Positions 18,638 through 41,290 of a stretch of DNA of 64,000 nucleotides are shown here, piece by piece. The stretch lies in assembly GCA_963971405.1 (NCBI GenBank), contig OZ020490.1, positions 11,580,874-11,644,873 of the forward strand, given 5' to 3'. How positions within the stretch are numbered: the first letter of the stretch is position 1; every line of letters begins with the position of its first letter. The notes below the pieces were generated by a model. That model was not told where the DNA came from and made no database searches. It saw only the letters and a program-made list of their open reading frames with translations. The position numbers and the translations under genes were made by a program. This DNA comes from Psococerastis gibbosa (lineage: Eukaryota > Arthropoda > Insecta > Psocodea > Psocidae).

Positions 18638-18777
18638 GGCGGGTATTCCACATACGCCAATCGTCAATGAAAAATTGAAAAATGACGTTTAAAGACATAC
18701 TAAAAATTCTGCTACCACGTCAATTTACGTCATTTTTCAATTTTTCAATGACGATTGACGTATGTGGAATACCCGCC
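18638..18777. mobile_element. Hairpin MITE, 140 bp
   Basis: The arms are 50 bp with two mismatches, starting GGCGGGTATTCCACATACG. TTA flanks both sides, consistent with a PIF/Harbinger-type 3-bp duplication. The loop contains GACATACTAAAAATTC followed by TGCTACCACG, which is shared with the copies at 36263, 55415 and in part 58062. The left arm has lost about 20 bp near the loop relative to the other copies. Confidence 0.85.
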
Positions 18778-20569: not shown

Positions 20570-21045
20570 TGAGAAAAATTTAATTAAATAAGTTATAATT
20601 AAGAAATCTAATTTAAAATAATACATTTAACTTTAAATAGAATACTGTTTGCAAAGAAAAACAAGTTAGTTAATAAAATATATTTTGTCCTGGCAGAAGG
20701 CAATTTTTCAATATGGCGAATTCTGGAAGAATGACTGAATGAGTTTTATAGCCATGCCAAAAAGACCACATGTATTTTAAATTTATATTATGCATTTATG
20801 GTTCATGAGTAACAGTAGAAAATGAAGCAGAACGTGGTTCATATTATAATTAATTGTATAATAAATTGAGTCTATTTATTTTAGGTAAGATAATAATACT
20901 ATTTCCACATATATCTTCAATAATCCTTATCAATTGGTAGCAGAACGTGGTTCATATTATAATTAATTGTATAATAAATTGAGTCTATTCATTTTAGGTA
21001 AGATAATAATACTATTTCCACATATATCTTCAATAATCCTTATCA
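20570..21045 (+). repeat. Copia 5' LTR with an internal 113-bp duplication
   Basis: The unit from GCAGAACGTGGTTCATATT to TTATCAATTGGTAGCAG occurs twice (about 20820-20940 and 20941-21056). The first copy runs past the LTR end into the PBS-like TTGGTAGCAG and then jumps back into the LTR at GCAG. The 3' LTR has one copy only. The natural LTR would be about 363 bp. Confidence 0.85.
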
Positions 21046-21047
21046 AT

Positions 21048-21058
21048 TGGTAGCAGAG
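21048..21058 (+). promoter_or_regulatory. Primer binding site, initiator tRNA-Met
   Basis: TGGTAGCAGAG lies 2 bases after the LTR end. It is complementary to the 3' end of animal initiator tRNA-Met (…CUCUGCUACCA). The polyprotein ATG follows at 21061. Confidence 0.8.
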
Positions 21059-21060
21059 TC

Positions 21061-23184
21061 ATGATGACGAGCAAAGAAGATATTGCTGCAATAGAGAAAC
21101 TGTGTGATGTGTCCAACTATCAACTATGGAAATTTCAAGTTGACATTTGGCTGAAAAGTGCAGGTCTGTATGGATATGTGGATGGGACAATCCCTGTAGG
21201 GGACAAGACACATAAGGACAGTGATGATGCCAAAGTTCAAAGGCTCATAGTATCTACAGTTTCTAAAACTAATTTAATGCATTTATTAAATTGTTCATCG
21301 GCCGTGGAAATGTATAAGAAGCTTACGAGACTTTATGATAGAGACTCGGACATGCAGAAGTGCAACTTGTTGACTACGTTTTACAACTTCAATATTGATG
21401 GAAGTAAATCGATGGCGGAGAACGTAGCGGTGTTGGAAAACGTGGCGTTTCGACTGAAGGCAGTTGGGGAAACTATCTCTGATTCCATGATGATGTCCAA
21501 GGTTCTGGCTGTTTTACCGGATAGCTTCAAGCACTTCAAGGTGGCCTGGGAAAGCACGGAAAAGGCGGAACGGACGATGACGAACCTGGTAGCTCGACTA
21601 TCGATTGAGGAAAACCAGATAAGTACCAACAATACTAGGCCTAGTAATGTAGCATTTGCCTCGTTTAGGAAGGGCATAAAATGCTACAAATGTCTCAAGG
21701 TCGGTCATCTTAAACGGGACTGTAGACAAAACAGCGCTGAATTTAGCAAAACCAATAATGGTAATAAGAATAAGGGTAAGTTTCCACCCTGTAAAATTTG
21801 CGGCTTGACCAATCACAGCGAAGATAGGTGTTTTAAGCGCGATAAAGCTAAATATGACAAAGTTTCGTTCTTTGCAAGCAGCTATGAAAAGGCTGGTAAA
21901 AGTAGCAGCATATTTGTAATCGATTCTGGAACGACCCAGAGTTTAACTAACAATTTAAATCTTCTAAGTAATGTTGTATGTAATGATGAGGAGTTTTGTG
22001 CAGCTAATGGAGGTAGTATGAAAAGTACAGCTAAAGGTACTCTTGATGGTAAAGACTGTCTGTTGAAAGAAGTAAAATACATTCCAGAGCTCTGCACAAA
22101 TTTACTCTCAGTTAATCGTATCACGGAAAATAATGGTGAAGTATTATTCACTAAAGAGAAAGTTATAGTTACGAAAAATGATAAGGTAGTGTTAGAAGGA
22201 GAAAAAGTTAATGGCCTGTATAAGATTAATATACCTAAAGTAAATAATAATGTAGCTATGTGTGTTACTGAGGTTCACAAAAGGATGGGTCATTTAAGTT
22301 ACAAAAATATTGGTAATCTTAAGAAAATTGCTGATGGGTTAGAAAACTTGGGACCGATTGATATTAAAAATATTCCTTTTTGTGATGTCTGTGCCAGATC
22401 AAAGCTCAAACGAACCCCATTTAAGGGACATATGAGAAAGGCAAAAAGGCTGTTAGAAACAATACAAAGCGATCTCTGTGGTCCTATAGACCCACCTACG
22501 TATGATGGTAGGAAATACTTTATTACTCTCACAGACGATTTCTCGCATTATTGTGAGGTTTATCTATTAAAAAATAAGAGCGAAGTGTCTGATGTTGTAA
22601 AAGCCTATATTTCTCGCGTTGAAGTTGAAAAGGAGGTAAAGGTAAAAAATTTTAAAACAGATGGTGGTTCGGAATATGCTCCTTTAGCTAGTTTCTTTGA
22701 GTCTAAGGGAATCAAAGTTGATAAAACTGCTCCCTATAGTCCTCAGCAGAATCCTAAATCTGAGAGGATGAATTACACTTTATGCTGTAAACTGCGTGCC
22801 TTGTTATTTGAGTCTCATTTTGAAAAAGATATGTGGGGAGAAGCCGTTCAAATGGCAACTTACCTGACTAATAGAAGCCCTACTGCTAATTATTCTAAAA
22901 CTCCGATTGAGCTATGGTCCGGTAGAAAGCCTAATGTTGCTGATATAAGGTTGTTTGGATCTATATGCTATGCAAAAACACTAACGTATTTGAAAAAGCT
23001 TGATGAGCGGTCTAAGAGGTATCTATTCTTGGGATACGCCAACAATGGTTACAGGTTGTGGGACGAGGAGAAACACAAAGTTATAGTGGCTCGTGATGTT
23101 GCATTTAGCAACATAATACCTGAGCCTAGTAGTCATGAATTACCAAGTATTACATCGTCTGCTAGCTTGTGTAGAGTCCGTTAA
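21061..23184 (+). CDS. Copia Gag-protease-integrase, cut by a LINE insertion
   Basis: A 707-codon frame beginning just after the primer site. The N-terminal part has the copia Gag pattern NYQLWKFQVDIWL. A CCHC knuckle CYKCLKVGHLKRDC lies at about residue 208 and a second, CKICGLTNHSEDRC, at about 243. The aspartic protease motif DSGTT is at about 288. The integrase zinc-binding part runs from HKRMGH to CDVCARSK, followed by catalytic D (SDLCGP, about 470), D (KTDGGSEY, about 532) and E (PKSERMNYTL, about 567); the residue before KSER is P where G is usual. The true copia frame ends where the LINE begins near 23170, so the last few codons are LINE sequence. The rest resumes at about 28599. The product would be truncated but includes all domains up to integrase. 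Confidence 0.92.
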   Translation: MMTSKEDIAAIEKLCDVSNYQLWKFQVDIWLKSAGLYGYVDGTIPVGDKTHKDSDDAKVQRLIVSTVSKTNLMHLLNCSSAVEMYKKLTRLYDRDSDMQKCNLLTTFYNFNIDGSKSMAENVAVLENVAFRLKAVGETISDSMMMSKVLAVLPDSFKHFKVAWESTEKAERTMTNLVARLSIEENQISTNNTRPSNVAFASFRKGIKCYKCLKVGHLKRDCRQNSAEFSKTNNGNKNKGKFPPCKICGLTNHSEDRCFKRDKAKYDKVSFFASSYEKAGKSSSIFVIDSGTTQSLTNNLNLLSNVVCNDEEFCAANGGSMKSTAKGTLDGKDCLLKEVKYIPELCTNLLSVNRITENNGEVLFTKEKVIVTKNDKVVLEGEKVNGLYKINIPKVNNNVAMCVTEVHKRMGHLSYKNIGNLKKIADGLENLGPIDIKNIPFCDVCARSKLKRTPFKGHMRKAKRLLETIQSDLCGPIDPPTYDGRKYFITLTDDFSHYCEVYLLKNKSEVSDVVKAYISRVEVEKEVKVKNFKTDGGSEYAPLASFFESKGIKVDKTAPYSPQQNPKSERMNYTLCCKLRALLFESHFEKDMWGEAVQMATYLTNRSPTANYSKTPIELWSGRKPNVADIRLFGSICYAKTLTYLKKLDERSKRYLFLGYANNGYRLWDEEKHKVIVARDVAFSNIIPEPSSHELPSITSSASLCRVR

Positions 23185-24127
23185 TTTTTGAATCAAGTAT
23201 ATTTAATTTTTCTTCGGTTGAAATCTTATTATTTTGTGCGTCAAATAATCGAAATTGGGCAGATAAGGGTCAACGCTGAAGACAACAGTACTTGGAACCA
23301 AGTAAAATTGACGGAATATACCTGAATATTGATATTTATTGTATCATTATATCATCTTTTGGACCTCAACCATCAGACGGACAACTTGTCATAGTCAGCT
23401 GAGTAGTGTTGTTATTTGACTTGTTTCGTAAATAATAACAAACTGATACGAGAATACGACTACTATTTTGAAAAGTCACTCACCACTGGAGGAACCATCA
23501 AGATGAAGGGAAATTATTGCAGTACAACGCTTGAAAGACCAATTTCTCTTCACTAAATACAAATAGCCACGGCTGAACATCACCATTCACCGCACTTTGT
23601 AGTAGCCTGCTTGACTAGGACACCACACTGTAGGATCAGAACACCACACTACCGAACTGAGCAGGAAATCATCAACCAAATACGGTAATATCACACAAGT
23701 ACTTTTAGTGAGGCAATTTGCTAGCTTGCGTTGTAAATTTTTTAAACTGCATGAACTTTGTTAACTTGTTGTGCCGCGTGTTTACTGTTTATATTTACAA
23801 TTTTCATTTCTGAATGACGTGTCAATAGATAGATTCTGGTTACTGAATCGAAGCGCCCACATACTTTTAGGCGGCAAATTCAAAATTAAAATTACAAACG
23901 GGACTATCTTAAATCGATTTTTATTTTTATATTTTTATAAGTAATCTGAATTGAATCTGCGACTTATTGACTATATTGAGAAATTGTTATAACTGATTGG
24001 TAAGTTGTACTAACTTTCAGTAGGTATATTGTATACATAGCCTACATATTGCACAGTATATATTTTGTATCGTTCAATTATCTAACTCACTTGACCCATC
24101 AATTTATCTAAGCCTACCTACTTCAGA

Positions 24128-25519
24128 ATGTCTTTGCTAGATCTGAGTATTCCAATATCAAACAATGACTCTAGCTTTAATGTAACTATGTCAAACGACA
24201 CTTTTATTGAATCTAAGGCAAATGAAGTGTTTCAATACTATGCTGATAATCGAGATAGCCTGCCTGTATTGCTGTATGATAAGACAATGGGCTTCTTTAA
24301 GGAGATTTTTGACCTGGCGAACAAGGTTACCCTTGAAAATGAGCGCTTGCAGAATACCATCAGCGAGAAGTCGGTATTATACGAAGAGCTGGATAGAGCT
24401 TATCTCCAGTCTCTTAAAACAGCTCACCTCCTGCGTAGCCAGCTTCAGTATATCGAAAAATCTGTATCTTGCGCCACTATTGCAACGCAAACTCCGATTG
24501 CTGAAGCTGCTATTGAGCAGTTCAAACCAAAAATTACTTTCTCTAACGCCCATACCTCTACTTGTGATTTAAATGTTTTAGACGACTTAAAAATGCAGGT
24601 AGGCACAGAGAGTACTCCGTTGTTAGCCAAACGACCAAGTCACGCTAGTGAAATTTTTAATATTGTAAAAACTCGAAAAATCACTAAACCTACAACAGTG
24701 ACTTTAAGAACTATCGAAGTTCAGCCCTTTGAGGCTTTGCCCAGCACTGTCTCTTCTCCCAACCCTAAAATTTTTATCCTTAGTGACGAATATGGTAAAG
24801 GGCTGGGCCCATTGTTAAATACCCAGATCCAAATGAGTGGTTCATCTTCTGTGGCCCTGGGCGTTACGAAAACAAATGGTAAGCTAATGGATGTGGTTGA
24901 AAGTCTAGCTTCCATTTCTCACAATCTATGTACGAACGATACTGTGATTATACAGGGTGGGTCAAACGACGTGCATGGTATTTACTCATTCCCTATCTCT
25001 CTAAGCCGTGCCCTGCAAAAGATTTTATTGTATAAGGACAAGTGTAAAACTATTATGTTAAATATCCCGTACCGATTTGACAAACCTGAACTAAATAGCG
25101 AAATATTTCACGCAAATGAACAAATAAAAAAGTTCTGCTTAAGAAACGGCATTTCTTACAAACTGGTTGAGTTACCCCGTTCAGACTACTCAAAATATGG
25201 TCGTAATTTGTCTCGTCGGGGGAAAAATGTATTAGCAAGGAAGTTAGTTGACTATTTATTACCGAACCTCATATCTCAAAGCGAAAATGTTATGGATACC
25301 CCCACCCAGATAGCTGCAGATATCTTAAACGTCATTTTTGAAAATGCAACCAAGGCAGTTCAAATGCTATCCCCCTCTCAAGCAAATCAAGTTAATGAGA
25401 GTGAATGCCAGGTTCAAACTGGCCAAAAAATTCAGATCGTTGAGGGCAGGGGTAGGCGATTGGAGCATTTTTTATTCAAAGGTCTATCTACCAAGAAAGG
25501 CCGCCACAAACGTATATAG
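24128..25519 (+). CDS. LINE ORF1 protein with SGNH-hydrolase-like domain
   Basis: 463 codons. Residues about 65-115 are a heptad-rich, Leu/Glu-rich stretch (NKVTLENERLQNTISEK and on) that should form a coiled coil. From about 213 there is an esterase-like fold: FILSDEYGKGLG in the block I position, QGGSNDVHG (GxSND-type block III) at about 276, and SRRGKNVLARKLVDYLL (block V position, about 361) where the catalytic His is not evident. Established: several CR1-group LINEs carry an esterase/SGNH domain in ORF1 in place of an RNA-recognition motif. Nucleic-acid chaperone or membrane roles are inference. No zinc knuckle is seen. The active-site Ser may be replaced (DEYG where GDS is usual), so enzyme activity is doubtful. 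Confidence 0.85.
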   Translation: MSLLDLSIPISNNDSSFNVTMSNDTFIESKANEVFQYYADNRDSLPVLLYDKTMGFFKEIFDLANKVTLENERLQNTISEKSVLYEELDRAYLQSLKTAHLLRSQLQYIEKSVSCATIATQTPIAEAAIEQFKPKITFSNAHTSTCDLNVLDDLKMQVGTESTPLLAKRPSHASEIFNIVKTRKITKPTTVTLRTIEVQPFEALPSTVSSPNPKIFILSDEYGKGLGPLLNTQIQMSGSSSVALGVTKTNGKLMDVVESLASISHNLCTNDTVIIQGGSNDVHGIYSFPISLSRALQKILLYKDKCKTIMLNIPYRFDKPELNSEIFHANEQIKKFCLRNGISYKLVELPRSDYSKYGRNLSRRGKNVLARKLVDYLLPNLISQSENVMDTPTQIAADILNVIFENATKAVQMLSPSQANQVNESECQVQTGQKIQIVEGRGRRLEHFLFKGLSTKKGRHKRI

Positions 25520-25533
25520 CCGTACCTGTTACC

Positions 25534-28377
25534 GTGACGAGGACCAATGACGCTGCACAGTGGTCAAATCTCAGTCTCTTACACATTAACATTCAATCAC
25601 TAAATTCTAAGTTGTCATTCATTAAATCACTCCATACAATTAATACCCTACCTACCGATGTACTGTGCATTTCTGAGCACCATATGCCTCAGCTTCAAAT
25701 TAATACAGTAAACTTTGAAAATTTCTTCTTGGCCACTTCTTTTAGTCGCAAAAACCACGGCCGCGGAGGTTCGTGCATTTTATTGGCAAATAGGTGGAAA
25801 GACAAAAATCGTCCCCGTACGGATTTAATGGCTAGAAATAGCGAATTTCATTTTGAGATATGTGCTGTAGAGCTTGTTGAGAGTAAATTAGTCATCTTGT
25901 CAGTGTATAGGTCCCCAAATTATGGCTGCCGCAATGTCTTTCTAGAAAGTTTAAATTGGGTAATAGAAGAAATTGCTACTGAGGGCAAAAACATAGCCCT
26001 CGCCGGAGATTTTAATTTCCACTTCTTAGATCCTAACGATGCTTTACCACTTACTGATCTCACTTTCTCTTACGGGCTGGCAAATACCGTACAATGCCCC
26101 ACAAGAGGCAACCAGTGCTTAGACAATATTTTTACTAATTTAGCTTTTAATGACCCGGATGTTTTTGAAACGGGCATGTCTGATCATAAAGCAATCCACA
26201 TAAAGCTTAGGATATGTAAAACTATACGTCAAACGGTTACACCGCAAATTAGACGGAAACTAAATAAAGGTAATTTGGAGAACCTATCTTCATATTTAAA
26301 AACGGTATGTTGGTCGGATATATATGAATTGCCCTGTCAAGATGTAAACACCCTTTTTAAAAACTTCTTGCAACACTTTCAAGGAGCACTAAATTTATTT
26401 TGTCCATTTACTCCCCACTGGAAAACTAACCGTATTTCTGTCAATTCCCCTGAACTAACGAGTATTTATGCTAGAATGAAAGACACTAATGTACTAATAA
26501 AAAGTTGCCAGGACCAAACATTGAAAACTGCCCTTCGTAAGCAGTACAGGATACTAAATAAGTTGGCGGAATCCACTGTAAAAAACATAAATGACGGAAA
26601 GATAAAAAACGATTCTAACTTATCTCGTGGTGCTTGGAAACTAATAAGGGAAACTGTGCACATAAAACCGGTTAAAACTGGGCCGAAGGAATTGTGTGTG
26701 GGAGGTTCGGTCACCTCAGACGCAAATGAAATGGCTAAACATTTTATAAAACACTTCTCGCAACTACCGGTACCGCCTAAATCAGACCTATCGCCCATTG
26801 ACATCATGAGGAGAGTAACAGTCAGTCCTGTCGACTCATTTTTTTGTCGCCCAGTGTCTCATGATGAACTAACTCGTTTATGCAAGAGTTTTAAGAATAG
26901 TAAAGCTCTAGATACATATGATATGTCATCCACACTAACAAAACTTTGTTGGCCTTCTATAGGTGAAATTGTAACTTATTTAATAAACACGGTTATATCA
27001 GAGGGTGTTTTTCCCTCTTGCTTGAAAGCTAGTGAAATCGTACCTGTATATAAAAAGGGGGACAAAACTGAGGTAGGAAACTGGAGGGCTATCTCCATCT
27101 GCCCATTTCTTTCAAAGTTAATAGAAAAAGTATATTGTGACCAATACTTAACCTTTTTAACTACAAAGGACATCCTTAGTCCCGATCAGTTCGGTTTCCG
27201 CAGGAGGCGGAGTACAAATGACGCACTGTACTCTTTCATGTCATCAGTATATGAACTTGTGGACAACAGAAATACACTGGGTGGCATTTTCTGTGACCTG
27301 AGTCGTGCCTTCGAAATGGTCCCCCATTCTATATTGCTTGATAAATTAAGTCATTACGGTCTTCGTGGACTACCTCTTCAATTTTTATCTTCATACCTCG
27401 AAGGTCGGGTACAGAGGGTTCGTTTGAATCAGGACAGTGGAGACACAGTTCAGTCGGAATGGGTACCAGTAGAAAGGGGCGTCCCGGCTGGTTCAGTTTT
27501 CGGTCCAATCCTGTTTATCTTATTCGTAAATGACTTGCCTGCGTCCATACGCCCCCACTGTACACAGTGCACCTTATTTGCCGACGACACCAGCCTGTTA
27601 GTGTCAGGTAATAGGAACGCAAATTTAAGTCAGTTAACTGAAGTTTCGCTACTGAAGGCACAAGAATGGTTTGACGCTAACCAATTGGTGCTTAATACTA
27701 ATAAAACGGTGCTTGTGAACTTCACAAAAAATGATATTTCGTCGTCATTGTCAGTAAATGGTCAGGTTCTCGCGCTTAGTGCAAAAACTAAATTTCTGGG
27801 CTTAATTATTAACAGTGGTCTAAGCTGGACTGATCATATTGACGCACTTAGTGCTAAGTTGTTATCAGGGCTGTATCTTCTCCGTACGCTTGCCAGTCAG
27901 GTCAGCAGAGAGGCTCTTAAGCTAGTATACCATGCCTGTTTTGAGTCCCATCTCAACTATGGAATAATTTTTTGGTATGGCTCGCCTCAAAATGTTTTAA
28001 ATCGACTCTTAGTGTTACAGAAACGAGCCATTCGTACCATGTGCCGCCTCCATCCTCGCACCCATTGCAAGCCATACTTTAGGGATCTGGGGATTTTGAC
28101 ACTGCCAGCACTCTATGCGTTAAACCTACTTATGTTCGTGAGAAAGGACCTATCAATTTTTGATACTAGAGATGGAAGGAACGGTAGAGTGTTGCGGGGG
28201 TTGAGAGTGCATTTTGAGAGCTTTCGCTTTTCCCCGCAGTACCGGGGAATAGCGCTCTTTAACAGTCTTCCTCGGCATTTGAGGGACGAGCCTAGTGTCA
28301 AGATCTTCAGAGTTTCAGTTAGGGAATTATTATTAAAATTGAGCCCATATGATGTGCGTTTCTCCTTTGAACAGTGA
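25534..28377 (+). CDS. LINE ORF2: APE endonuclease and reverse transcriptase
   Basis: 947 codons, opening 14 bases after the ORF1 stop. N-terminal apurinic-type endonuclease: HINIQSLNSKL, ISEHHMPQ, GRGGSCILLA, LAGDFNFHF and MSDHKAIH are the usual catalytic blocks. Reverse transcriptase: IVPVYKKGDK and NWRAISICPFLSKLIEK, PDQFGFRRRRST, CDLSRAFEMV, GVPAGSVFGPILF and the active site FADDTSLL (about residue 680), then a thumb and a C-terminal FNSLPRHLRDE block. Two small departures from consensus are FEMV (usually FDxV) and PAGSVFGP (usually PQGSxLGP). No stops or shifts, so it could be active. It belongs to the CR1/Jockey group; the exact clade needs a tree. Confidence 0.93.
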   Translation: MTRTNDAAQWSNLSLLHINIQSLNSKLSFIKSLHTINTLPTDVLCISEHHMPQLQINTVNFENFFLATSFSRKNHGRGGSCILLANRWKDKNRPRTDLMARNSEFHFEICAVELVESKLVILSVYRSPNYGCRNVFLESLNWVIEEIATEGKNIALAGDFNFHFLDPNDALPLTDLTFSYGLANTVQCPTRGNQCLDNIFTNLAFNDPDVFETGMSDHKAIHIKLRICKTIRQTVTPQIRRKLNKGNLENLSSYLKTVCWSDIYELPCQDVNTLFKNFLQHFQGALNLFCPFTPHWKTNRISVNSPELTSIYARMKDTNVLIKSCQDQTLKTALRKQYRILNKLAESTVKNINDGKIKNDSNLSRGAWKLIRETVHIKPVKTGPKELCVGGSVTSDANEMAKHFIKHFSQLPVPPKSDLSPIDIMRRVTVSPVDSFFCRPVSHDELTRLCKSFKNSKALDTYDMSSTLTKLCWPSIGEIVTYLINTVISEGVFPSCLKASEIVPVYKKGDKTEVGNWRAISICPFLSKLIEKVYCDQYLTFLTTKDILSPDQFGFRRRRSTNDALYSFMSSVYELVDNRNTLGGIFCDLSRAFEMVPHSILLDKLSHYGLRGLPLQFLSSYLEGRVQRVRLNQDSGDTVQSEWVPVERGVPAGSVFGPILFILFVNDLPASIRPHCTQCTLFADDTSLLVSGNRNANLSQLTEVSLLKAQEWFDANQLVLNTNKTVLVNFTKNDISSSLSVNGQVLALSAKTKFLGLIINSGLSWTDHIDALSAKLLSGLYLLRTLASQVSREALKLVYHACFESHLNYGIIFWYGSPQNVLNRLLVLQKRAIRTMCRLHPRTHCKPYFRDLGILTLPALYALNLLMFVRKDLSIFDTRDGRNGRVLRGLRVHFESFRFSPQYRGIALFNSLPRHLRDEPSVKIFRVSVRELLLKLSPYDVRFSFEQ

Positions 28378-28598
28378 ATCTCTTATATTTTTAAAATGAA
28401 ATTATTTAATATATACACTGTGCAATATCGTTGGTTTTTAGGTTTTAGCTTTTGACTACATATATATACTGTATTTACATATATTCATATTCCATAAGAT
28501 TGTTTGACTTAGACAGTAAGGGGTTGGAGAAATTTTGTTACATTGAGTATCTATCCTCTGTTGCTTGTCCAAATATATACATTACATTACATTACATT

Positions 28599-30407
28599 AA
28601 CGATAATTATGTTGTCGATTTATTTAACGACACCAATTCTTGTTGTTCAGATGATGAGTCCGAATCTGAAACGGATGAAACTCAAGCTGTGACGGAGGTG
28701 GACCAGTCTCAGTGGTCAGCTGGATCAGAAGTTGATACAAGCGAGAGTAATGATGATAATGACATTAGTAGCGGCTACGATCTGAGACGTGTCACACATC
28801 CACCAGCTAGATATGATTGCGTGATGGATTTGACTGATGCACTAGAAGGAAATGTTTCTAATTTTTTGTCTAGTGACAGTTCTGTTTACAATAATAATAT
28901 TTCGCTTACCTATAAGGAAGCTGAAAGGAAAAGTGAATGGAAAACTGCAATAAACAGCGAAAAGGAGTCTTTGTCCAAAAATGACACTTGGGGATATGTA
29001 AACAGATCTGATGCTAAGGGCCATACGATATTGAACACTAGATGGTTGTTTAAAATTAAAGATGATGGAACGCACAAAGCCCGGTTGGTAGTGAGAGGTT
29101 TTCAGCAAAAACCTGGTATTGACTACAATGAAACTTATAGTCCGGTAGTAGACACTGACTCGTTGCGAATTTTGATGGCTATTTCTGCATCTAAGAATTT
29201 AAAGATTGTAACTTTTGATGTGCGAACAGCATTTCTGGCAAGCCCTATCACCGATGAGGTCTTTATTGAAATTCCTGAAGGGTATAAGAAACGTGAGGGG
29301 CAAGTATGTAAATTACGCAAATGTCTTTATGGTCTCAAACAAGCTCCAATGAATTGGAACAGTACTTTAACTTTGCGTTTAAAACAAATAGGGTTAGAGC
29401 CTACCAAAAGCGATCATTGCATATTTGTGAATGCCAATAAAACTGTTTATCTTAGCATTTTTGTAGATGATGGTTGTCTGGCATGTGAAAATGAAAAAGA
29501 AATGAATGACATATTGAAGTATTTAAGCAAAAATTTCGAAATTAAGAGTTTTGAAAATCCTAAAAGTTATGCTGGTTTTGAACTTGATATAAACAATGAA
29601 TTTATAAGCTTAAAGCAAGAAAAGTTTTGCATTCAAATGTTGAACAGATTTAATATGGGCGATTGTAAAGTAACAGATACTCCCATGGAGAAATCTAAAT
29701 TCGCCGAAGAAGTTGAGAATTTTGAAAATATAAAATTCCCATATAGGGAAGCTGTCGGAAGTTTGCTGTATATAAGTTCAAAAACTAGACCAGATATTAG
29801 TTTTGCCGTAAATACTGCTGCTAGAGCAGTTGAAAAACCGAGTTGGAAGGACGTTAAAAAGGTTAAACGAATCATGCAGTATTTGAAAGGTACATCTAGT
29901 CTTGGACTGGTTTTTAAACGAAATAATAATATTGATCTACTTAATGTGTACACTGATAGCGATTATGCAGGTGACTATGCGACTTGTCGTAGCACTAGTG
30001 GATTTGTTTGTTACTTAAGTGGAGGACCAATTGCTTGGCACTCCAGAAGGCAGCCTATTGTCTCAAACTCGTCTACAGAGGCTGAGCTGATCTCAGCAGC
30101 TGACTCAGTGAAAATACTTATTTTTATTAAGACTTTAAGTGAAGAGATGACTGCTAATAAACTTAAGATTTTTCTGAATGTTGATAATACCAGCGCCATA
30201 TATCTTATAAAGAATGGTAAATTCAATCGGCGCAGTAAACACATTGACGTTAGATATTTTTTTATACATGAGAAATACAAAGACAATCTTTTTGAAATAA
30301 AGCACTGCCAAACGGACAGGCAAATAGCAGATATTTTGACTAAACCGTTGTTGACAGAAAAGTTTATAAAATTCAGAAATTTGCTTGTTTCAAAAGATGA
30401 GTACTAA
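28599..30407 (+). CDS. Copia reverse transcriptase and RNase H, second part of the interrupted polyprotein
   Basis: The open frame begins at 28452 inside the LINE tail, but the copia reading resumes at about 28599 (NDNYVVDLF), with an acidic linker before the enzyme. Reverse transcriptase: TWGYVNR, NTRWLFKIKDDG, ARLVVRGFQQKPGIDYNETY, SPVVDTDSLRILM, DVRTAFLASPI, YGLKQAPMNWN and the active site FVDDGC (29460), the YVDD-type box. RNase H: YTDSDYAGD (29948), STSGFVCYL and NSSTEAELIS, then HIDVRYFFIHEK and ADILTKPL at the end. All catalytic Asp/Glu are visible and the frame is open to the stop. It is nonfunctional here only because the LINE separates it from Gag-integrase. Confidence 0.93.
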   Translation, partial: NDNYVVDLFNDTNSCCSDDESESETDETQAVTEVDQSQWSAGSEVDTSESNDDNDISSGYDLRRVTHPPARYDCVMDLTDALEGNVSNFLSSDSSVYNNNISLTYKEAERKSEWKTAINSEKESLSKNDTWGYVNRSDAKGHTILNTRWLFKIKDDGTHKARLVVRGFQQKPGIDYNETYSPVVDTDSLRILMAISASKNLKIVTFDVRTAFLASPITDEVFIEIPEGYKKREGQVCKLRKCLYGLKQAPMNWNSTLTLRLKQIGLEPTKSDHCIFVNANKTVYLSIFVDDGCLACENEKEMNDILKYLSKNFEIKSFENPKSYAGFELDINNEFISLKQEKFCIQMLNRFNMGDCKVTDTPMEKSKFAEEVENFENIKFPYREAVGSLLYISSKTRPDISFAVNTAARAVEKPSWKDVKKVKRIMQYLKGTSSLGLVFKRNNNIDLLNVYTDSDYAGDYATCRSTSGFVCYLSGGPIAWHSRRQPIVSNSSTEAELISAADSVKILIFIKTLSEEMTANKLKIFLNVDNTSAIYLIKNGKFNRRSKHIDVRYFFIHEKYKDNLFEIKHCQTDRQIADILTKPLLTEKFIKFRNLLVSKDEY

Positions 30408-30738: not shown

Positions 30739-31776
30739 TGTAGGAAATGATGCCCCAGAGGTTGGCGACACTGAGAAGGCGGTGCGTCAGTTGTTGTGAG
30801 ATGGCGGATGGTGTGGGAACGTTTAGTTGCCCACAATAAAATGTGTTTCTGTATTTTGTATTAATAAATCTTTAACTCAAATTAATGTGTATTTACTCCT
30901 ATAAATTCAGAAGTGGGATTCGTGTTAAGTTAACTTTGTGAACTCGGCTTTAAATAAGTGAAAGTGATTGTTATTGAATTATAAATGAAGAAAATATGTT
31001 ATGGACAGCGGTATGCACTGCAGTCGCAGGCGCGGTCGAGTACACTTGGCTCACTAGAGTTGTGTGATGAGTGGTAGGTGAGACGATAATTGAGGCCGAC
31101 GATAACTGAGGCTAGTGTACGCAACTTGATAAAAACTGTAAGAAGACGTTCGTGACCATTGTGTTTGCTTTAGCTACTTCCTCTTTGCTAAGTGCGGCTG
31201 GTGAAATGACCTCGTGTGAGTAGTCTAAATTCTAATGTATTGAAATAAAGACGAAGTATAAAGACGAAATATAAAGACGAAGTATAAAGACGAAGTATAA
31301 AGACGAAATATAAAGACGAAGTATAAAGACGAAGTATAAAGACGAAGTATAAAGACGAAGTATAAAGACGAAATATAAAGACGAAGTATAAAGACGAAGT
31401 ATAAAGACGAAGTATAAAGACGATGCATAAAGACGAAGTATAAAGACGAAGTATAAAGACGAAGTATAAACACGAAGTATAAACACTGTAATCGGCAAAC
31501 AACAGCTACGACGTTGAAAGGATCAGTGGTGAGGGGCCTAAAATGACAACTACAACTGCTGAGTACATGAAGGAGTGGTGCCCAGGGTCGGGACCAGGCA
31601 GGACGGCCGATTGTAGGAAATGATGCCCCAGAGGTTGGCGACACTGAGAAGGCGGTGCGTCAGTTGTTGTGAGATGGCGGATGGTGTGGGAACGTTTAGT
31701 TGCCCACAATAAAATGTGTTTCTGTATTTTGTATTAATAAATCTTTAACTCAAATTAATGTGTATTTACTCCTATA
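30739..31776 (+). mobile_element. TRIM (non-autonomous LTR element), 1038 bp
   Basis: Two 165-bp LTRs (30739-30903, 31612-31776) begin TGTAGGAAATG and end CTCCTATA, and look identical. The element is flanked by the 4-bp duplication ATAT and sits exactly within GGTTCATATTATAATT of the copia LTR. The 708-bp interior has no gag or pol. After the first LTR comes AATTCAGAAGTGGGATTCG, the likely primer site (tRNA not identified). The interior is dominated by a 13-bp minisatellite. TG…TA termini are less common than TG…CA. Its autonomous partner is probably gypsy- or BEL-like, an inference from the 4-bp duplication. Confidence 0.9.
31247..31482 (+). repeat. 13-bp minisatellite inside the TRIM
   Basis: About 18 tandem units of AAGACGAAGTATA with A/G and a few other variants. 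The long minus-strand frames of repeated LYTSSLYFVF are translations of this array and not proteins. Confidence 0.95.
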
Positions 31777-33339: not shown

Positions 33340-34140
33340 GAACCCCCCCCCCCCCTCCCAGATCATATTATTGAACATATCAGGGATGGAACCTTGTACA
33401 GCTCTCAGAATTTCGTAATTTTCGGAACTCAATGGTAACATAACAGAATAGAAGGCAGAGCTAATAGACGTTAATTTGGACAAACTTTTTGAATGATATT
33501 TTGAATGTTTATTTTTACTTCGGTCAAATAGGAGAAAAAAAATTCCCCTGCCCACAGAAAAAATTTCGGAATTTTGCAAAACATCGGAATATTTCAGAGG
33601 CCAAAAGGAATGGGTTCCATCCCTGCCACATAGTCTACCTAAGAAAAGACCCAGTTTTAGTGTCATTTAATCTACCTATTCAGACGGCGACCAATGTTCG
33701 ACTTCCGGAAAATGTCTTCATAATTGTGTTCTAGTGTAGGCCTACTCTAATAGTATCAAGGCCGTAGGCAAGGGGGGGGGCTTATTGGGCTGCAGCCCCC
33801 CCCCCCCCGAAATGAAAACTTTTGAAAAACATTTCCGCCGGGGGAGACCCTCGGCCCCTCCCCCCCTGTTTGCAGATATATGAATATGCATGCCTTTGTA
33901 AGCTTTGCTGCTGTAAAACCCCACTGTTTGCACTTATATGTGGATTTTTTTCCTCGGGGGAGGCCTCCCTCTGGTTTAAATGCAATATTATTTCTATGAG
34001 TAAGTATTCCGTTGTAAGCTGTGTAAAATCTATCTTTTGCTGCTGTTAAAATGCGTAAAACCCCACTATTTTGCACTAATATTTTCAAATTTCCCCCCCC
34101 CCCCCGAACCCCCCATTTGGGTGGAAATGCAATATTATTT
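33340..34140. repeat. G/C-run rich, transposon-derived segment
   Basis: Several C9-C13 and G10 runs (33344, 33772, 33799, 34096). The piece at 33660-33740 is repeated in reverse at 49100-49150 (share ACATTGGTCGCCGT). The stretch at 33755-33810, with a GTAGGCAAGGGGG start, looks like the G-rich hAT-type ends seen elsewhere in the window, but boundaries could not be set. Confidence 0.4.
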
Positions 34141-35646
34141 TTATTCAATCTAAACGGTCGTAATGGTAACATTAGGATTTAGTCCGCATTTCCGCAAAAT
34201 ATTGTGTGTCTGTGTTCGCACCAAAACTAAGTCCGCCTAGAAATTGACGTTTGGTGTGCCTATGCTATCATATGAAGCCCTTGGAAGCCAACCCATGTAA
34301 GTGACATTTTCAGATTTTTTTAGTTAAGTGCACGGTGAAAATTTCCGCACCAAGGACTCCATGAGAAGCCAATCCGTGTAACTGTGCGACTGTTACAGAC
34401 CAAAATATTGAGGTTTGAAAATGAGTGTAAGTGCAAAGTTGCAGATACATTAAGAAGCCAAGTGAAGTTGCCTGTTCCTTTGGTGGCCAAGAAATGTAAT
34501 TGTGTCACTTACACCTCTTTGCCTCCAAGCCGGACTTTGTTTACATTCGCAAATCGAATTCTAAGCGTTGAGACCAGGGGCGTTTAACTTCAATGGAGGT
34601 TTTCGTTATACGCGGGAACTGTTCTGATTGGCCCTGATCCAAACCCACGATAGCCAACCGTGAAATTGTATTTTTTTTTTAATTTTATGTTGGTAACACC
34701 TGTTTGTGATTTACTACAAACATCCCGTGGCTGCAGATCCTTGTCAACATGGCGGCTAGTGTAGCCTCTATAAGCTAAGTACAGGGTTGAGACCGAGTCA
34801 GATATCCGTTCTGCAATGCGTAAGACTTCGACATATTTAACGTTGATACTTATCTCTGATATTTGGCTTATGGTTAAGGGGTGCCCCGTAAGGGTTACTA
34901 TGCCTCCCGCCGTTCTAGTTAATATATTTCTATGAAAACAACGGACATTCCGACATTGGACATGGACAACACACAGCGGCCTTTAATAATATTATATATT
35001 TTTAATAAGTTTTGTGAGCCAATATAAATTTGAACTACGACGGGAAGTGAGGTGAGTAAACATATTTCATGTGCCTGTTTTTTTAAACATTTTCAGTTGT
35101 ATACCATCCAACACCTTACATATCTTACATGGTTTTAATTTTCAAAATGGAAAATCGTTAGCATGTGCAACTCATTTGTGTAGCAAAACAACTAAAATTT
35201 GTTTAATTCATCATTCATTCCTTGTTTGTGAAGTGTTCAAGTGAGAAGGAAAAATAGTAAAAGGTACATTTGGTAAATTACAATTTTTTAAATAAAAATT
35301 TTTAAAACCTACGCACTCACTTTGTTAGATCTCTTGTCAGTGCTATGAGATATGCCCGTAAGATGTTAGCACAACCAGCCTAGTTAACAAAAAAATGTGA
35401 AATGTGTGACCTACAATAATTTAATCACGTTAAGTTGGACACTTACGAGTCAGTTTTGACCATGTGTAAGAGGTTATTTGAACCTACAACGTGGAAGTAA
35501 CTGTTTGAAAAAGGAAAATTACGTTACAATTGCATTTTAATCTACACAATAACTTGATACACAAATTGCACCTTATTGTAGCTGGCATATACAACCTAAC
35601 TTGTGTGTTGACAGTGACCTTATTCCACTAACATTTTAACTGTGGA

Positions 35647-35834
35647 ATGGATGAAGAAACTCTTGAGCATATTCTCCTGCAATGGTCCATTCCAAGCAGG
35701 GAGAAGGACTTACTCGTGACGGCATTGGGAGGAGGAGGAATAGAAAAAATTCTGGGACGGAAGAATCTTTGGGCACTGGTGAATGAATCATCTGGCCATT
35801 GGCATCACCTGAAGCTGGAACCCAGTAGTAAGAA
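35647..35834 (+). CDS. Possible first exon of a second transposon gene
   Basis: An open frame starting MDEETLEHILLQWSIP and rich in Leu/Gly, with a usable donor (GTAAGA) at 35835. It lies between the left end and the transposase gene of the 6.6-kb element. No family recognised. It could equally be chance; the codon content is better than in neighbouring sequence. Confidence 0.3.
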
Positions 35835-36262
35835 GTAAGAAAATGGCAGTCGTCGGTGCTGACAAGTTGAACTCCATAGTGCAAAGTAAGTATTTTCTAG
35901 CAATCTCAGATAGGGGTGACGATAGTATATTAAGGGTGTACAGCCCGTAGGAAATTGGCAGCCCGAAATAATTAACTAATCATGTTATTTAACATTTGTC
36001 TCATTAAAGTTGTAAAAGACTACTTCATGCATCCTATGATAAGATATAGTATTTCTAATATTTTAAATTGTAGCTTTTTCATCGACATGATAATATTTTG
36101 TAAACAATAACCTTATTATATGATGCATAAAGTAGACTTCTACAACTGAAATGAGCCAAATCTTTAATAACTTGCTTTTTTTAATTAAATAAAAAGTTTT
36201 AAATTTCGGGCTGACAATTTCCTATGGGCTCTTTAACTAATCTGCTATTTTTCCTTTCCTAT

Positions 36263-36405
36263 GGTGCCCATTCCACATACGTACAACGTCAATGAAAATT
36301 ATGAAATTGAAGGTGGTAGCAGACATTAAAGACATACTAAAAATTCTGCTACCACCTTCAATTTCATAATTTTCATTGACGTTGTACGTATGTGGAATGG
36401 GCGCC
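36263..36405. mobile_element. Hairpin MITE, 143 bp, inside the 6.6-kb transposon
   Basis: The arms are 61 bp with one mismatch, starting GG(T/C)GCCCATTCCACATACG; the inner arm ends GGTGGTAGCAGA and the loop is CATTAAAGACATACTAAAA. Flanks are TAT and TAA, an imperfect 3-bp duplication. Closest relative: 55415-55556. Confidence 0.9.
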
Positions 36406-36851
36406 TAAGTGTAGACCTACGCTATTGTAACGAAAGCACTGGCATTTCGAGTACCTATTCGACAGATTTACATGCTGCTTTTACGGTTCCAGAAACAGGA
36501 AAAGTGACACTATCTATGTTGTTAGATTTGTCGAAATATCCTTGTGTAACGGACTGGTGCGAGTTTACCCAAATATGCTTTCATTTTTATTAATTAGTGT
36601 AGGTAATGTCAAATTTCCATGGTCAGTAATTGTACCATGGCTGCCTACTCATGTTCCGATCAATTAGAAACCTATAATGGAAATTAATATATAAATGATC
36701 AATTACGGTACCTACAGTATATGAAGTGGCAAGGTATTAAGATGCGCAGGTCTCTACACACCATGTGATCGGAGAAAGGAGAAGCATCGTTACTTTTTCT
36801 TCTTCATATTTGTGCGGGTAGTTTGGCTTATCATATCATTTGAACTTTCAG

Positions 36852-37175
36852 GAGATGTCATGTCAGCGATTTATTAAGAGAATTTAGTTCGGGATGAACA
36901 TGCATGCCGCCTTGATAAGGAGGAGAAAGATAGACGTGATGCTGGAAGGAGAAGACATTGTTCGCTATGCAAAAGCCTGAAGGATTCGGTTTATTGGCGG
37001 CGAATGGCTCATCACCGAGCAAGGGAAGGCTCGCAACCGATGAAGAGTATAGGTGGAACCTGCACAAGATGTCAGTCTCGACTTTCCAGAAGAAGAGCAA
37101 GGACGAGAATGTATTCCTATTTCCACATAACAATCTATTTCGACGTGTTGATACATTACATTTCGAGCTATTCAC
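36852..37175 (+). pseudogene. Cysteine-rich segment, possible relic exon
   Basis: A good acceptor (CTTTCAG) precedes it. One frame reads RDEHACRLDKEEKDRRDAG, then CSLC and, 30 residues on, CTRC in an Arg-rich setting, a possible four-Cys zinc site like those at the ends of some transposases. A stop lies just upstream in that frame, so it is broken or mis-modelled. It may join 35647-35834 across an intron. Confidence 0.3.
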
Positions 37176-37439
37176 GTTATCACAAATAATTTGTAGATGG
37201 ATTTCGTATGGACTGAGTTCAATTTAGTAATAAAAAGAAATGTATATTTCTTAATAAGTATAATGTGCGTTGGTCATTGAGTATTTCTTAATTTTGTATT
37301 TAATATGTTAGGTACGGCTTAGTGTGGAACTATGAAAAAAAAATAGTTTGTTTAAAATAAGGTGAATACTAACAACGTTGTCAGAGTACATACCAGAGTA
37401 GTCATTAAAAATCAATTATATAATACAAAATAGGTCAAT

Positions 37440-37480
37440 ATAATATTAAATAGGAAGGGAGCGCGAGCCGGGCCGGCCGG
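37440..37480 (+). promoter_or_regulatory. GC-rich block upstream of the transposase gene
   Basis: GGAGCGCGAGCCGGGCCGG and following GC-only bases stand out sharply from AT-rich surroundings, about 190 bases before the first ATG. It may be part of the promoter; this is inferred from position and composition only. Confidence 0.3.
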
Positions 37481-37671
37481 GGCCCCGGCCACACAAAATT
37501 TGAAAAAAGGAGCGAATGATTCAGACGCGGGAGGGCCAACGTTATTATTATTTTTTTTTTGGCAGTTGGCAGTCTTTCCCTAACAAAATATTACCATTGA
37601 GTTAACGTTCTTATATGTTATGTTGTTCTGTGGTTGAGACATTGCTCCAAGCAATTATATTTTCTTAAAAA

Positions 37672-40290
37672 TGGAAGGTAAGAGTGAAATTTTTGCACTT
37701 GTTTTCTTATAAAACTGTCCACATTGAAAAATAGCGTGATGCTTGTGTTTTCTTCCTATACAAATTAACTAATTACTGCAAAAAAGCATAAGTTAATTTG
37801 AGCCTTCATGCATAACCTAACCAGGAACAATATTTTAATATATTCTGATTTTGTTTCAGCAGAAAAACAAGATTTTGATAAATTTCATGGAGGAGTAGTT
37901 GAACCAGAGAGAGACTTATTTGAAGGTAAGCTTTGAAACTATTTAAAAGAAGGGTGTTGATAAAATACTTAGTTTAGTGTTGGCTCTAGGCTATTGACTA
38001 GGCGCCGCGCTGCCTTCACCTTATAGACTTTCCCCAACCGCCCTGCACCCCTGAGTATAAAATGTGCATTGTATGTACAAAAGTATTTACGGCCATATTG
38101 AATGTTTTTTTTCTTGGTCGATCCGGCTCTAGCTGGTCAAGGACATTACAATTTTTAATATACAGTTTGCATTACTTGTCTGGGAACGAAGCCACGACTT
38201 TCCAATTCGCAGCCTAGCTCCCTACCAACTATAATACGGCTGCCTTGTAATATGTAAAAATTTATTTTCCAGATTCTGATGATGATTTTGATGACCCTAA
38301 CTACGAACCAGAGACAAGCCCTAAAGCAAAGAGACGGCTGTTTTACATGCCAGGGCACGTTAGTGAATCTGATTGTGAATCAGTAGTCATTGAAACTGAA
38401 GATTCAGCGTCAGAAAGTATGCAACCTTGTAGTAGCAAAGACGTCGTAGGTGTGTCAGAAACCGACAATGAAAACCCTGTAAAGAAGCGCAAGAAACAGA
38501 GAAAAGTTGCGAATTGGGCTCGAGTGAGGGCATCAAGTCTGCGAAATCACGGACAAGAATACGTGGATAGGCAGGGCCATTTTCATAAGAAAAAACAAGT
38601 TCAGCCACTTGGTGACCATAAATGTCACCTAAAATGTTACGAAAAAGTTACAGAAGAAATGAGACAAAAAGTTTTTGAAGAATTTTGGGAATTAGGCAGT
38701 TGGAACTTGCAATCATCATTTCTTCATTCCTGCATCGAAGTTTCTCAGCCTCTTAGAAAGAAGCAAGGTGGAGTAAGGAATCGAAAATGTAGCCTAAAGT
38801 TCAAATTGCATTCAACTCATGTTTGCAAGAACTTTTTTTTAAAGACTCTGGATATAAGTGGCTCAAAGGTGGATTTTCTTGCTAAAAAAATGACTGATGC
38901 ATCTTCTTTTGTGAGCCCTAAAGACAAAAGAGGGCAAAAGTTACCAACAAACAAGCATGCAGAGTTCACCGTGAATATAATTAAAGAACACATAAAGTCT
39001 TTTCCAAAATATACCAGCCATTATAGCAGAAATAAAAATCCGCAACGAAGATATCTTGCTACTGATTTAACATTAAAGAAAATGTACGAACTTTATAGAC
39101 AGCAATGTAATGTACAGAGTGTGCAGCCAGTGAAAGAGAGTTTTTACCGGAAGATATTTAACACAAAATTCAACTTAAGCTTTCATCGCCCTTTAACGGA
39201 TACATGTACCACTTGTGATCAGTTGCAAGTCAAGATAGAGCATGGAAATCCAGAAGAAAAGAAAAGCGCAGAATTGGCTAAAGCGTTGCATTTGAGGAAA
39301 GCTGATGCCGCCAAAGAATGGAAAAAGACGGACACTGAAGCCGCCAAAGAAGACCCTACGAAATTGGCAAAAAAAAAATGGCAACCCCGGTACTTACGTG
39401 CAGCAGTGTGTTTTATGCCAGACAGTTATGGACTTACAACTTTAACGTTCATAACTTGGCGACTAACAAAGCCAATATGCACATGTGGCATGAAGGCAAT
39501 GGCTCCAGAGGTTGCAACGAAATTGCATCATGCCTTCTGCGTTTCATTGAAACGCTGCCTAAATCGGTAAAACACATTTACTCGTATAGCGACAATTGTG
39601 GTGGCCAAAACAAAAGTCATTTTATTGTCAAGTTTTGGTTGTATGTCATAGCGAACACTGAGATTGAGACGGTAGATCATAAATATTTTGTTCCTGGGCA
39701 CTCCTACATGGAGTGTGACCAGGACTTCGAAATAATCGAGAAGGCAAAAAAAAAAGCAGTGAGTGTGTATGTACCTGATGACTGGTATACATTGGTGGCA
39801 ACAGCGCACCGCAAATTCGCTGTTACAAAAATGGAGGAATTCGTAGACTTAGAATTCCTAAATCCGTTCTACCGCCCAAGGGTCAACGGCATTAGTAAAA
39901 TGGTGTGGCTCAGATACACAAAAACAGAACCATTCACTTTATTTTGGAAAAATTGTTACAACGAACAAATTCCGTTTTATAAACTAGACATGAGGCCGAC
40001 CGATGGAAAGGTTCTCCGTTCGTCAAAAATGGAAGTAGCAAACGTCTTGAAGCTGCCTCCTACAATGCAATTTGCCGAACAAAACCCAGGCATTAAGAAG
40101 GAGAAAAAGGCTGACCTTGTTAAACTGGTGCAGTACATACCTCCAATACACAGAAGATTCTATGAAGGGCTAAAAATAAAACCTCTGCTATTAAAGAATT
40201 AAACAAAAAAGCCCACAGAAGAAAGTGACGACGAAGCAGAGGAAGCGGAGGTTTATGATGATGAACTTGATTCCTGTGACTCTGAATAAT
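37672..40290 (+). CDS. Transposase-like protein of the 6.6-kb element (three exons, frame change, early stop)
   Basis: Exons 37672-37678, 37861-37926 and 38272 onward join in frame (GT-AG): MEAEKQDFDKFHGG, then an acidic stretch. The main frame runs to 39570, but the conserved region continues one base back from 39378: TPVLTCSSVFYARQLWTYNF, YSYSDNCGGQNKSHFIVKF and GHSYMECDQDFEIIEKAKK. I know these blocks from a large family of insect proteins called uncharacterised or DUF-type, thought to hold a DDE/RNase-H-like core; ligand residues would be the Asp in SDNCGGQN and the acidic residues of CDQDFEIIE. A Cys-rich, basic N-terminal half (HKCHLKCYEKV, CTTCDQL) may bind DNA. The frame change falls in A10 at 39369-39378. 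A TAA at 40200 is followed in frame by an acidic tail to 40290, so the last 29 codons are probably lost. The expected first Asp block (FDLQ-type) before TPVLT is not visible. Confidence 0.75.
39369..39378 (+). other. A10 run at the frame change; fits a -1 slippery site
   Basis: The incoming frame reads GCA AAA AAA AAA TGG, so the heptamer A AAA AAA is in the correct register for -1 slippage, and -1 leads exactly into the downstream frame beginning at 39378. Alternatives are a one-base deletion in the copy or a homopolymer sequencing error. Confidence 0.5.
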
Positions 40291-40370
40291 TAAAACTTTA
40301 AAATTATAACTTTCACCGAAGCTTTGATGTTTTTATTAAATATGAAATGCCATTTCTCATGAAAGCCTCT

Positions 40371-40480
40371 AAAAGCCGCGTCCAGACTATGCAATAAACG
40401 CATTGCATTACGGTAATGCCGCAATTCTTTTTAGTAGTGCGAAATGCAATGCGTAAATGCTCAGTCTGGACGCGGCTTTT
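40371..40480. mobile_element. Small foldback element, 110 bp
   Basis: Arms start AAAAGCCGCGTCCAGACT and the right end is the inverse. A second inner pair, GCATTGCATTACGG and GAAATGCAATGC, is inverted too. A partial third copy of the inner arm follows at 40487-40525. It sits just 3' of the transposase gene. Confidence 0.75.
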
Positions 40481-41290
40481 CTACGAAAAAGCATTGCGGC
40501 TTTACCGAAATGCAATGCGTTAATGCACAATCAAAATGTGGCCTTAAACATACGTTGAAAAATCGAAACACCCGTTTTGTGCACTAGTACTAAACGCTCC
40601 ATCCTCGAAGAGGCCAAGTCAAGTTAAAGATATTTTCAGAAGCCAAGTAGTGCAAGTGACGTACCTTTAAAAAAAAAAAAAAAAAAATCTACAAAACGGC
40701 CTGCATTATGGTAATTCTTTATTTTTAGATTCAAACATACCAATGTTCAAACATACCATTCCGTTATAATTCATGAAAATAGAACAACTAGATCACTTGA
40801 TATCAGTTCCTGAACTTTGACATCCATTATCTCGAAATCACAAAAATGTCACTTACACGGGTTGGCTTCCAGGGGCTTCATATATACTCAGTAACACCAT
40901 AACCTCAAAAGAATACACTAGATACAATTGAATTCAAGAAATTTTTTTTACACTGTATAGGATCACAGTTGCCGCAACCACCCCCGAAAAAAAATCCTGG
41001 CTACGGGCTTGAATAGTATGTTATAATAATAATAATTTATAAGGGAAATAGAAACCGCCACCCCGCGAAGCTAGTCGGTGATTTTATGAAATCTCCCAAC
41101 ACCTGATCGGCCAGCGCCAAACTGGAATTTTTTCCATGAATGTCTTAAGAGGACATGTCAGTGTCGGACTAGGCACTCCAAATTATCATTTTTTTTCTCA
41201 TAAAATTAGATACCTGCGGAAGTTATATATAATAATAAAAGTCGAAGATAACTATTTTTTATACTTGAATGAATTACAACATACATAGAC

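Follow-up and report, generated by a model that had tools for sequence, protein, structure and literature searches.

A disabled 3.54-kb transposon of probable Sola type, with a predicted DUF7869 transposase and a younger nested insertion, in the genome of Psococerastis gibbosa

We analysed a 64,000-nt stretch of the host genome (C15:11580874-11644873; hereafter the window), in which positions 34274-40879 lie inside a host repeat, begin and end with inverted repeats and contain both a damaged multi-exon gene and a separate insertion. The features of this locus, in window positions, and the two further copies found in the genome are as follows.

33757..34273, no strand: left part of the host repeat, which continues at 40884-41011 (matches at empty-site loci)
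34270..34273, no strand: left target-site duplication, ATAT (sequence; empty site with one ATAT fewer in other copies of the host repeat)
34274..34310, plus: left terminal inverted repeat, 37 bp, beginning GAAGCC (end shared with c7 and c8)
34284..34461, plus: left subterminal motifs, three GAAGCCAA from 34284, 34365 and 34454 (sequence; putative transposase-binding role)
34575..37632, no strand: nested insertion of 3,058 bp that does not belong to the element (absent from copies c7 and c8)
37671..37677, plus: exon 1, start codon, 7 nt, GT donor (sequence; predicted)
37860..37925, plus: exon 2, acceptor CAGCAG, alternative start at 37863 (sequence; predicted)
38273..40289, plus: exon 3, broken in the window copy (predicted; stop at 40287-40289 common to the other copies)
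39199..39216, plus: DTCTTC motif with a C-x2-C pair, before the catalytic domain (Cys conserved in 20/20 and 19/19 covering alignment rows)
39360..40199, plus: C-terminal frame with the DUF7869 (PF25273) match, part of the predicted RNase H-like core (Pfam E=2.1e-11; predicted fold of c7)
39369..39378, plus: A-run at a 16-nt deletion (frame shifted, first catalytic Asp removed; Asp codon kept in c7 and c8)
39591..39593, plus: second putative catalytic Asp codon, SDNCGGQNK (alignment of relatives)
39717..39719, plus: third putative catalytic Asp codon, MECDQDF (alignment of relatives)
40610..40646, plus: right subterminal motifs GAGGCCAA and GAAGCCAA (sequence; putative binding role)
40843..40879, minus: right terminal inverted repeat, 37 bp, differing from the left one at 2 positions (end shared with c7 and c8)
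40880..40883, no strand: right target-site duplication, ATAT (sequence; empty site with one ATAT fewer in other copies of the host repeat)
C15:28608259-28615533: copy c7, locus L007 (end search of the genome)
C15:17616990-17620526, minus: copy c8, 3,537 bp (end search of the genome)

A sequence-only reading of the window had proposed 37-bp inverted ends with two mismatches, an ATAT duplication and repeated AAGCCAA-type motifs inside both ends, and each of these was borne out. The ends pair at 34274-34310 and 40843-40879, and a degenerate end pattern occurs twice in the window, both times at the element ends (0.06 occurrences expected). ATAT stands on both flanks and is single in the empty sites described below; as it is palindromic, a single copy cannot tell repeat from duplication, and with it counted the inverted repeat would extend to 41 nt (34270-34310 and 40843-40883). 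We rejected this longer repeat since copies flanked by AATT, together with the empty sites, show the tetramer to be a duplication. The motifs hold as a density of RGCCAA (GAAGCCAA or GGCCAA) near both ends (4 and 3 in the terminal 300 bp of copy c8 vs. 0.41 per 300 bp internally); AAGCCAA alone was not enriched across the whole window (17 vs. 14.35 expected). The subterminal GAAGCCAA motifs are possible binding sites for the transposase.

The same reading had suggested a genome check for further copies of the ends, and we used the leading 101 bp of the element as a query against the host genome (409 Mb in 68 contigs). The ends were not confined to the window: the six matches returned, all of them on contig C15, correspond to three copies with two ends each, and the two additional copies each carry a 4-bp duplication (ATAT/ATAT around the window copy, AATT/AATT around c7 and AATT/AATT around c8). 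Contig C15 makes up about 8.5% of the genome, and the confinement of the copies found to it may reflect local hopping or chance. We then queried the genome with the joined flanks of each copy, keeping one tetramer. The junction was covered in 40 of 40 scored rows for the window site (of 1119 candidates; 97-99% identity, 160-bp joined site), in 7 of the 7 rows other than its own flanks for c7 (of 9 rows; 78-93% identity) and in all 38 non-own rows for c8 (of 40 scored and 256 candidates; 86-97% identity, with matches that include only about 37 nt of the left flank); for all three sites the single tetramer was confirmed by letters at two loci each. These empty sites with a single tetramer therefore fix the element boundaries and the 4-bp duplication, and the ends shared by three copies, together with the uninterrupted targets, therefore make the window element a DNA transposon. 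The copies are 99.16-99.27% identical over ~3.2 kb of their right part, gaps left out, which suggests that the element probably moved in the recent past. The host repeat that received the window copy is about 640 bp long, as judged from two loci.

The element is smaller than the 6.6 kb first attributed to it: its mobile nature stands, but the size was wrong because 34575-37632 is a separate, nested insertion of 3,058 bp, and the element proper measures 3.54 kb (3,537 bp in copy c8). The nested insertion is flanked by an 8-bp duplication (GTTGAGAC at 34567-34574 and 37633-37640), begins CAGGGGCGTTTAACTTC and has no clear inverted repeats at its ends. Among 109 candidates, 40 scored places (the window one included) carry its left end at 97-100% identity, which points to a young, high-copy element, and in three fetched copies this end is preceded by unrelated flanks; judged from these sequence features, it is an independent mobile element and an example of how the apparent size of a transposon becomes inflated. 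Two frames considered as possible parts of the transposon (35632-35838 and 36878-37189) were rejected, both being inside the nested insertion; the latter, which contains C-x2-C pairs and was the sole frame scanned there, had no Pfam match over the cut-off. The nested insertion also contains a MITE-like hairpin of ~140 bp (36263-36405) with relatives near positions 18645 and 55422 of the window. At element position 180, copy c7 carries an insertion distinct from the nested one; it is 3,767 bp long and has an 8-bp duplication (TACATTAA) and an 836-aa open frame that by eye resembles a hAT transposase, so that this insertion appears to be a hAT-like element.

Two overlapping open frames (38251-39570 and 39339-40202), joined with two short upstream exons, yield the predicted three-exon gene. 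The earlier proposal of such a gene stands insofar as the three exons are splice-compatible; however, the gene is broken by the frameshift at 39369-39378 and by an early TAA stop at 40200-40202 that arose from a point change. Likewise, the CDQDFEIIE block that had been singled out is present in the window copy, but the CDQDFE form belongs to this copy only, and both c7 and c8 encode CDQDFG. Neither of the other copies is intact (c7 has lost 52 nt and stops early; c8 has lost 33 nt, carries a short insertion and has a shortened A-run), leaving an unbroken gene in none of the three copies found. Judged from its reading frame, the window copy in its present form is unable to encode an active enzyme, and, with the first catalytic Asp lost, it would be mobile only with enzyme from another copy.

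The multi-exon structure might instead suggest a host gene, domesticated or unrelated, that by chance lies between inverted repeats and is not mobile. We give this explanation almost no weight: the three copies sit in different repeats, each of which also occurs unoccupied, all three carry a broken gene, and relatives are many and diverged, with at least 56 stretches of the host genome (stretches, not copies) matching the window protein.

The C-terminal half of the protein matches DUF7869 with 44.2 bits (curated cut-off 26 bits). To place this match we used A1, an alignment of 26 rows of relatives in the host genome, 17 of which matched DUF7869 at E up to 0.01. Three of the rows come from copies of the window element (P0001, P0002 and P0003), three loci contribute two rows each (L018, L050 and L058), and L058/L059 and L023/L026 are near relatives. 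Three Asp residues are conserved in the covering rows (D1 in 17/18, D2 in 19/20 and D3 in 17/17, with 8, 6 and 9 of the 26 rows, respectively, gapped and left out of the counts), and the D1 and D2 exceptions both come from the two pieces of a single locus, L050. In c7, 75 residues separate D1 from D2 and 41 separate D2 from D3. The Pfam match covers residues 354-503 of P0003, entering the profile at position 25; as it starts downstream of the first Asp, at residue 317, the DUF7869 model apparently misses part of the catalytic core. The upstream C-x2-C pair is a possible zinc ligand. The C/DxxH motif found between the second and the last catalytic acid in the hAT/P/MuDR/Kolobok/Dada group was absent from P0003, P0004, P0005 and P0006.

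Searches outside eukaryotic relatives and by sequence against characterised proteins yielded little. A tblastn search of phages and plasmids with the C-terminal protein had no match, nor did a pattern scan of viral contigs, and the scan of bacterial and archaeal contigs gave four pattern matches with none confirmed. By sequence, the PDB returned a single match (an alanyl-tRNA synthetase, E 0.11), and PHROGs and NCBIfam returned nothing under E 0.07.

AlphaFold2, run on the c7 frame with A1, gave a model with mean pLDDT 72.6 and pTM 0.56; a model of the window fragment by itself was of low quality (mean pLDDT 37.3) and was kept out of the fold searches. Residues 311-447 of the c7 model follow the order strand, short helix, strand, strand, helix, strand, helix, strand, helix. 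Of the three Asp residues, Asp317 lies in the first strand, Asp393 closes the fourth strand and Asp435 sits close to where the last helix begins; with the short helix left out, the modelled order is that of an RNase H-like DDE/D core. Among the 50 PDB matches listed by Foldseek, the best was a chain of the TnsABCD transpososome (E 1.3e-3, 10% identity), which we take to be TnsB, the listing naming the complex only; none fell under E 0.001, and TM-scores reached at most 0.22 of the query. Piwi/Argonaute, a terminase nuclease, the Mos1 transposase (E 0.11, 8% identity) and RNase HI followed lower down, and these RNase H-superfamily matches were mixed with MutS, NurA and Tdp2. Among viral models, the sole match under 0.001 was an IS4-type transposase (2.9e-4, rmsd 26), the second carried the name of a helicase, and further down the list came repeated matches to transposases, RNases H and terminases. 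The protein shares with TnsB, Mos1 and other RNase H-like transposases a predicted core with an acidic triad; however, the matches to TnsB and Mos1 are themselves weak, and Mos1 duplications are TA and Tn7 duplications 5 bp long. The matches to the model thus support the fold class and not a particular family. The function of DUF7869 is likely to be that of a part of a DDD transposase core, so that a Pfam domain of unknown function, which overlaps the C-terminal part of the predicted core, gains a likely mechanism; if true, 'uncharacterised' DUF7869 proteins could be flagged as transposon genes.

Other DUF7869 families are present in the same genome, where the Pfam model found 21 stretches over the cut-off; 14 control genomes yielded no such match. 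Open frames of 791 aa occur at four loci of one of these, family B, and frames of 736 aa at two loci of another, and as the copies are nearly identical, related elements may still be active. The seven family B loci (L019, L020, L021, L022, L024, L029 and L032) lie on several contigs and are 98.8-99.8% identical over their fetched right parts, which suggests that this family was probably recently active. We followed five of the seven to both sides (L019-L022 and L029) and found duplications of ATAT, ATAT and ATAA, one copy with unmatched tetramers and one with a truncated left end; all three loci of family C (L036-L038) were followed and gave ATAT, AATG and one truncated copy. Families B and C begin CGTCGGC and the window family GAAGCC. 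A 4-bp duplication was thus present in five of the six two-ended copies of families B and C, and an exact one in eight of nine over the three families, the exception being CCTT/CTGG. That the protein family belongs to a mobile element whose ends are defined and which makes a 4-bp duplication, as had been suggested from the window alone, is thus supported by three copies, by occupied and empty sites and by families B and C.

A 4-bp duplication would also be compatible with an element of the Kolobok or piggyBac type. Kolobok duplications are TTAA (PMC9587614), and piggyBac integrates at TTAA (PMC7351741). The eight duplications are ATAT (four times), AATT (twice), ATAA and AATG, none of them TTAA, and we regard this assignment as highly improbable.

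We take the transposases with the DNCGGQNK block to be those of Sola elements, and we compared the element with published descriptions, so that its membership rests on features. A 2023 review describes Sola elements as having DDD transposases, 4-bp duplications, mostly 2-9 kb of length and inverted repeats of 11-1124 bp (PMC10741241), and Fanzor-bearing Sola2 elements of Dictyostelium and Polysphondylium are reported to have duplications of AWWT and of ATAT/AAAT/ATTT (PMC3627910). Here, a DDD triad is represented by the conserved Asp residues in the predicted RNase H-like core, with D1 missing from the window copy; the 4-bp duplication is present in all three copies of the window element; and the size (3,537 bp in c8) and the 37-bp inverted repeat fall within the ranges of the review. 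The likeness to the DDD chemistry it describes (PMC10741241) is drawn from conserved residues. In agreement with the Sola2 account, seven of the eight duplications are all A/T and six of eight fit AWWT; the one AATG and the one ATAA speak against the assignment. The amoeba elements share with ours AT-rich 4-bp duplications including ATAT, terminal inverted repeats and a large transposase gene; unlike ours, they occur in other hosts, have inverted repeats of 12-13 and 21 bp (vs. 37 bp here) and carry a Fanzor gene, of which none was recognised here (PMC3627910). Assigned by these features, the element is most likely of the Sola type, and within it most likely Sola2. The protein family had been called poorly described; that description is fair for the Pfam label DUF7869, but the underlying class of mobile element has probably been described before, in that the element matches the published Sola and Sola2 features.

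An alternative is that DUF7869 elements form a superfamily of their own, abundant in eukaryotes, with AT-rich 4-bp duplications, distinct from but related to Sola1-3 and hidden under the DUF label. Consistent with this, the literature collection searched had no paper under DUF7869, PF25273 or IPR057191 (an InterPro number that may be wrong), Pfam still labels the function of DUF7869 unknown, and our link to Sola comes from features. The motif letters likewise brought up no paper in that collection. However, the Sola features that we compared (DDD, AT-rich 4-bp duplication, inverted repeat and size) were all found, and we consider a separate superfamily unlikely.

With high confidence, we thus read 34274-40879 as a disabled 3.54-kb cut-and-paste transposon of the Sola type, most likely Sola2, that carries a younger 3.06-kb insertion and for which we propose a DDD mechanism. 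The transposase would bind the repeated subterminal GAAGCCAA sites, and its DDD RNase H-like active site, as modelled, would cut both element ends; the 3' ends would then be joined, with a stagger of 4 bp, to target DNA at tetramers rich in A and T (ATAT, AATT), and gap filling would produce the 4-bp duplication. Under this mechanism the window copy could be moved only by enzyme supplied by another copy.

Further repeats lie to the left of the element in the window. Frames of a Copia-type LTR retrotransposon span 21037-30404 (gag/integrase at 21037-23181 and RVT_2 at 28449-30404), and the frame that separates them (25456-28374) is that of a non-LTR retrotransposon and includes an endonuclease and a reverse transcriptase. 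A tandem array of a 13-bp unit, repeated 18.4 times, occupies 31245-31483.
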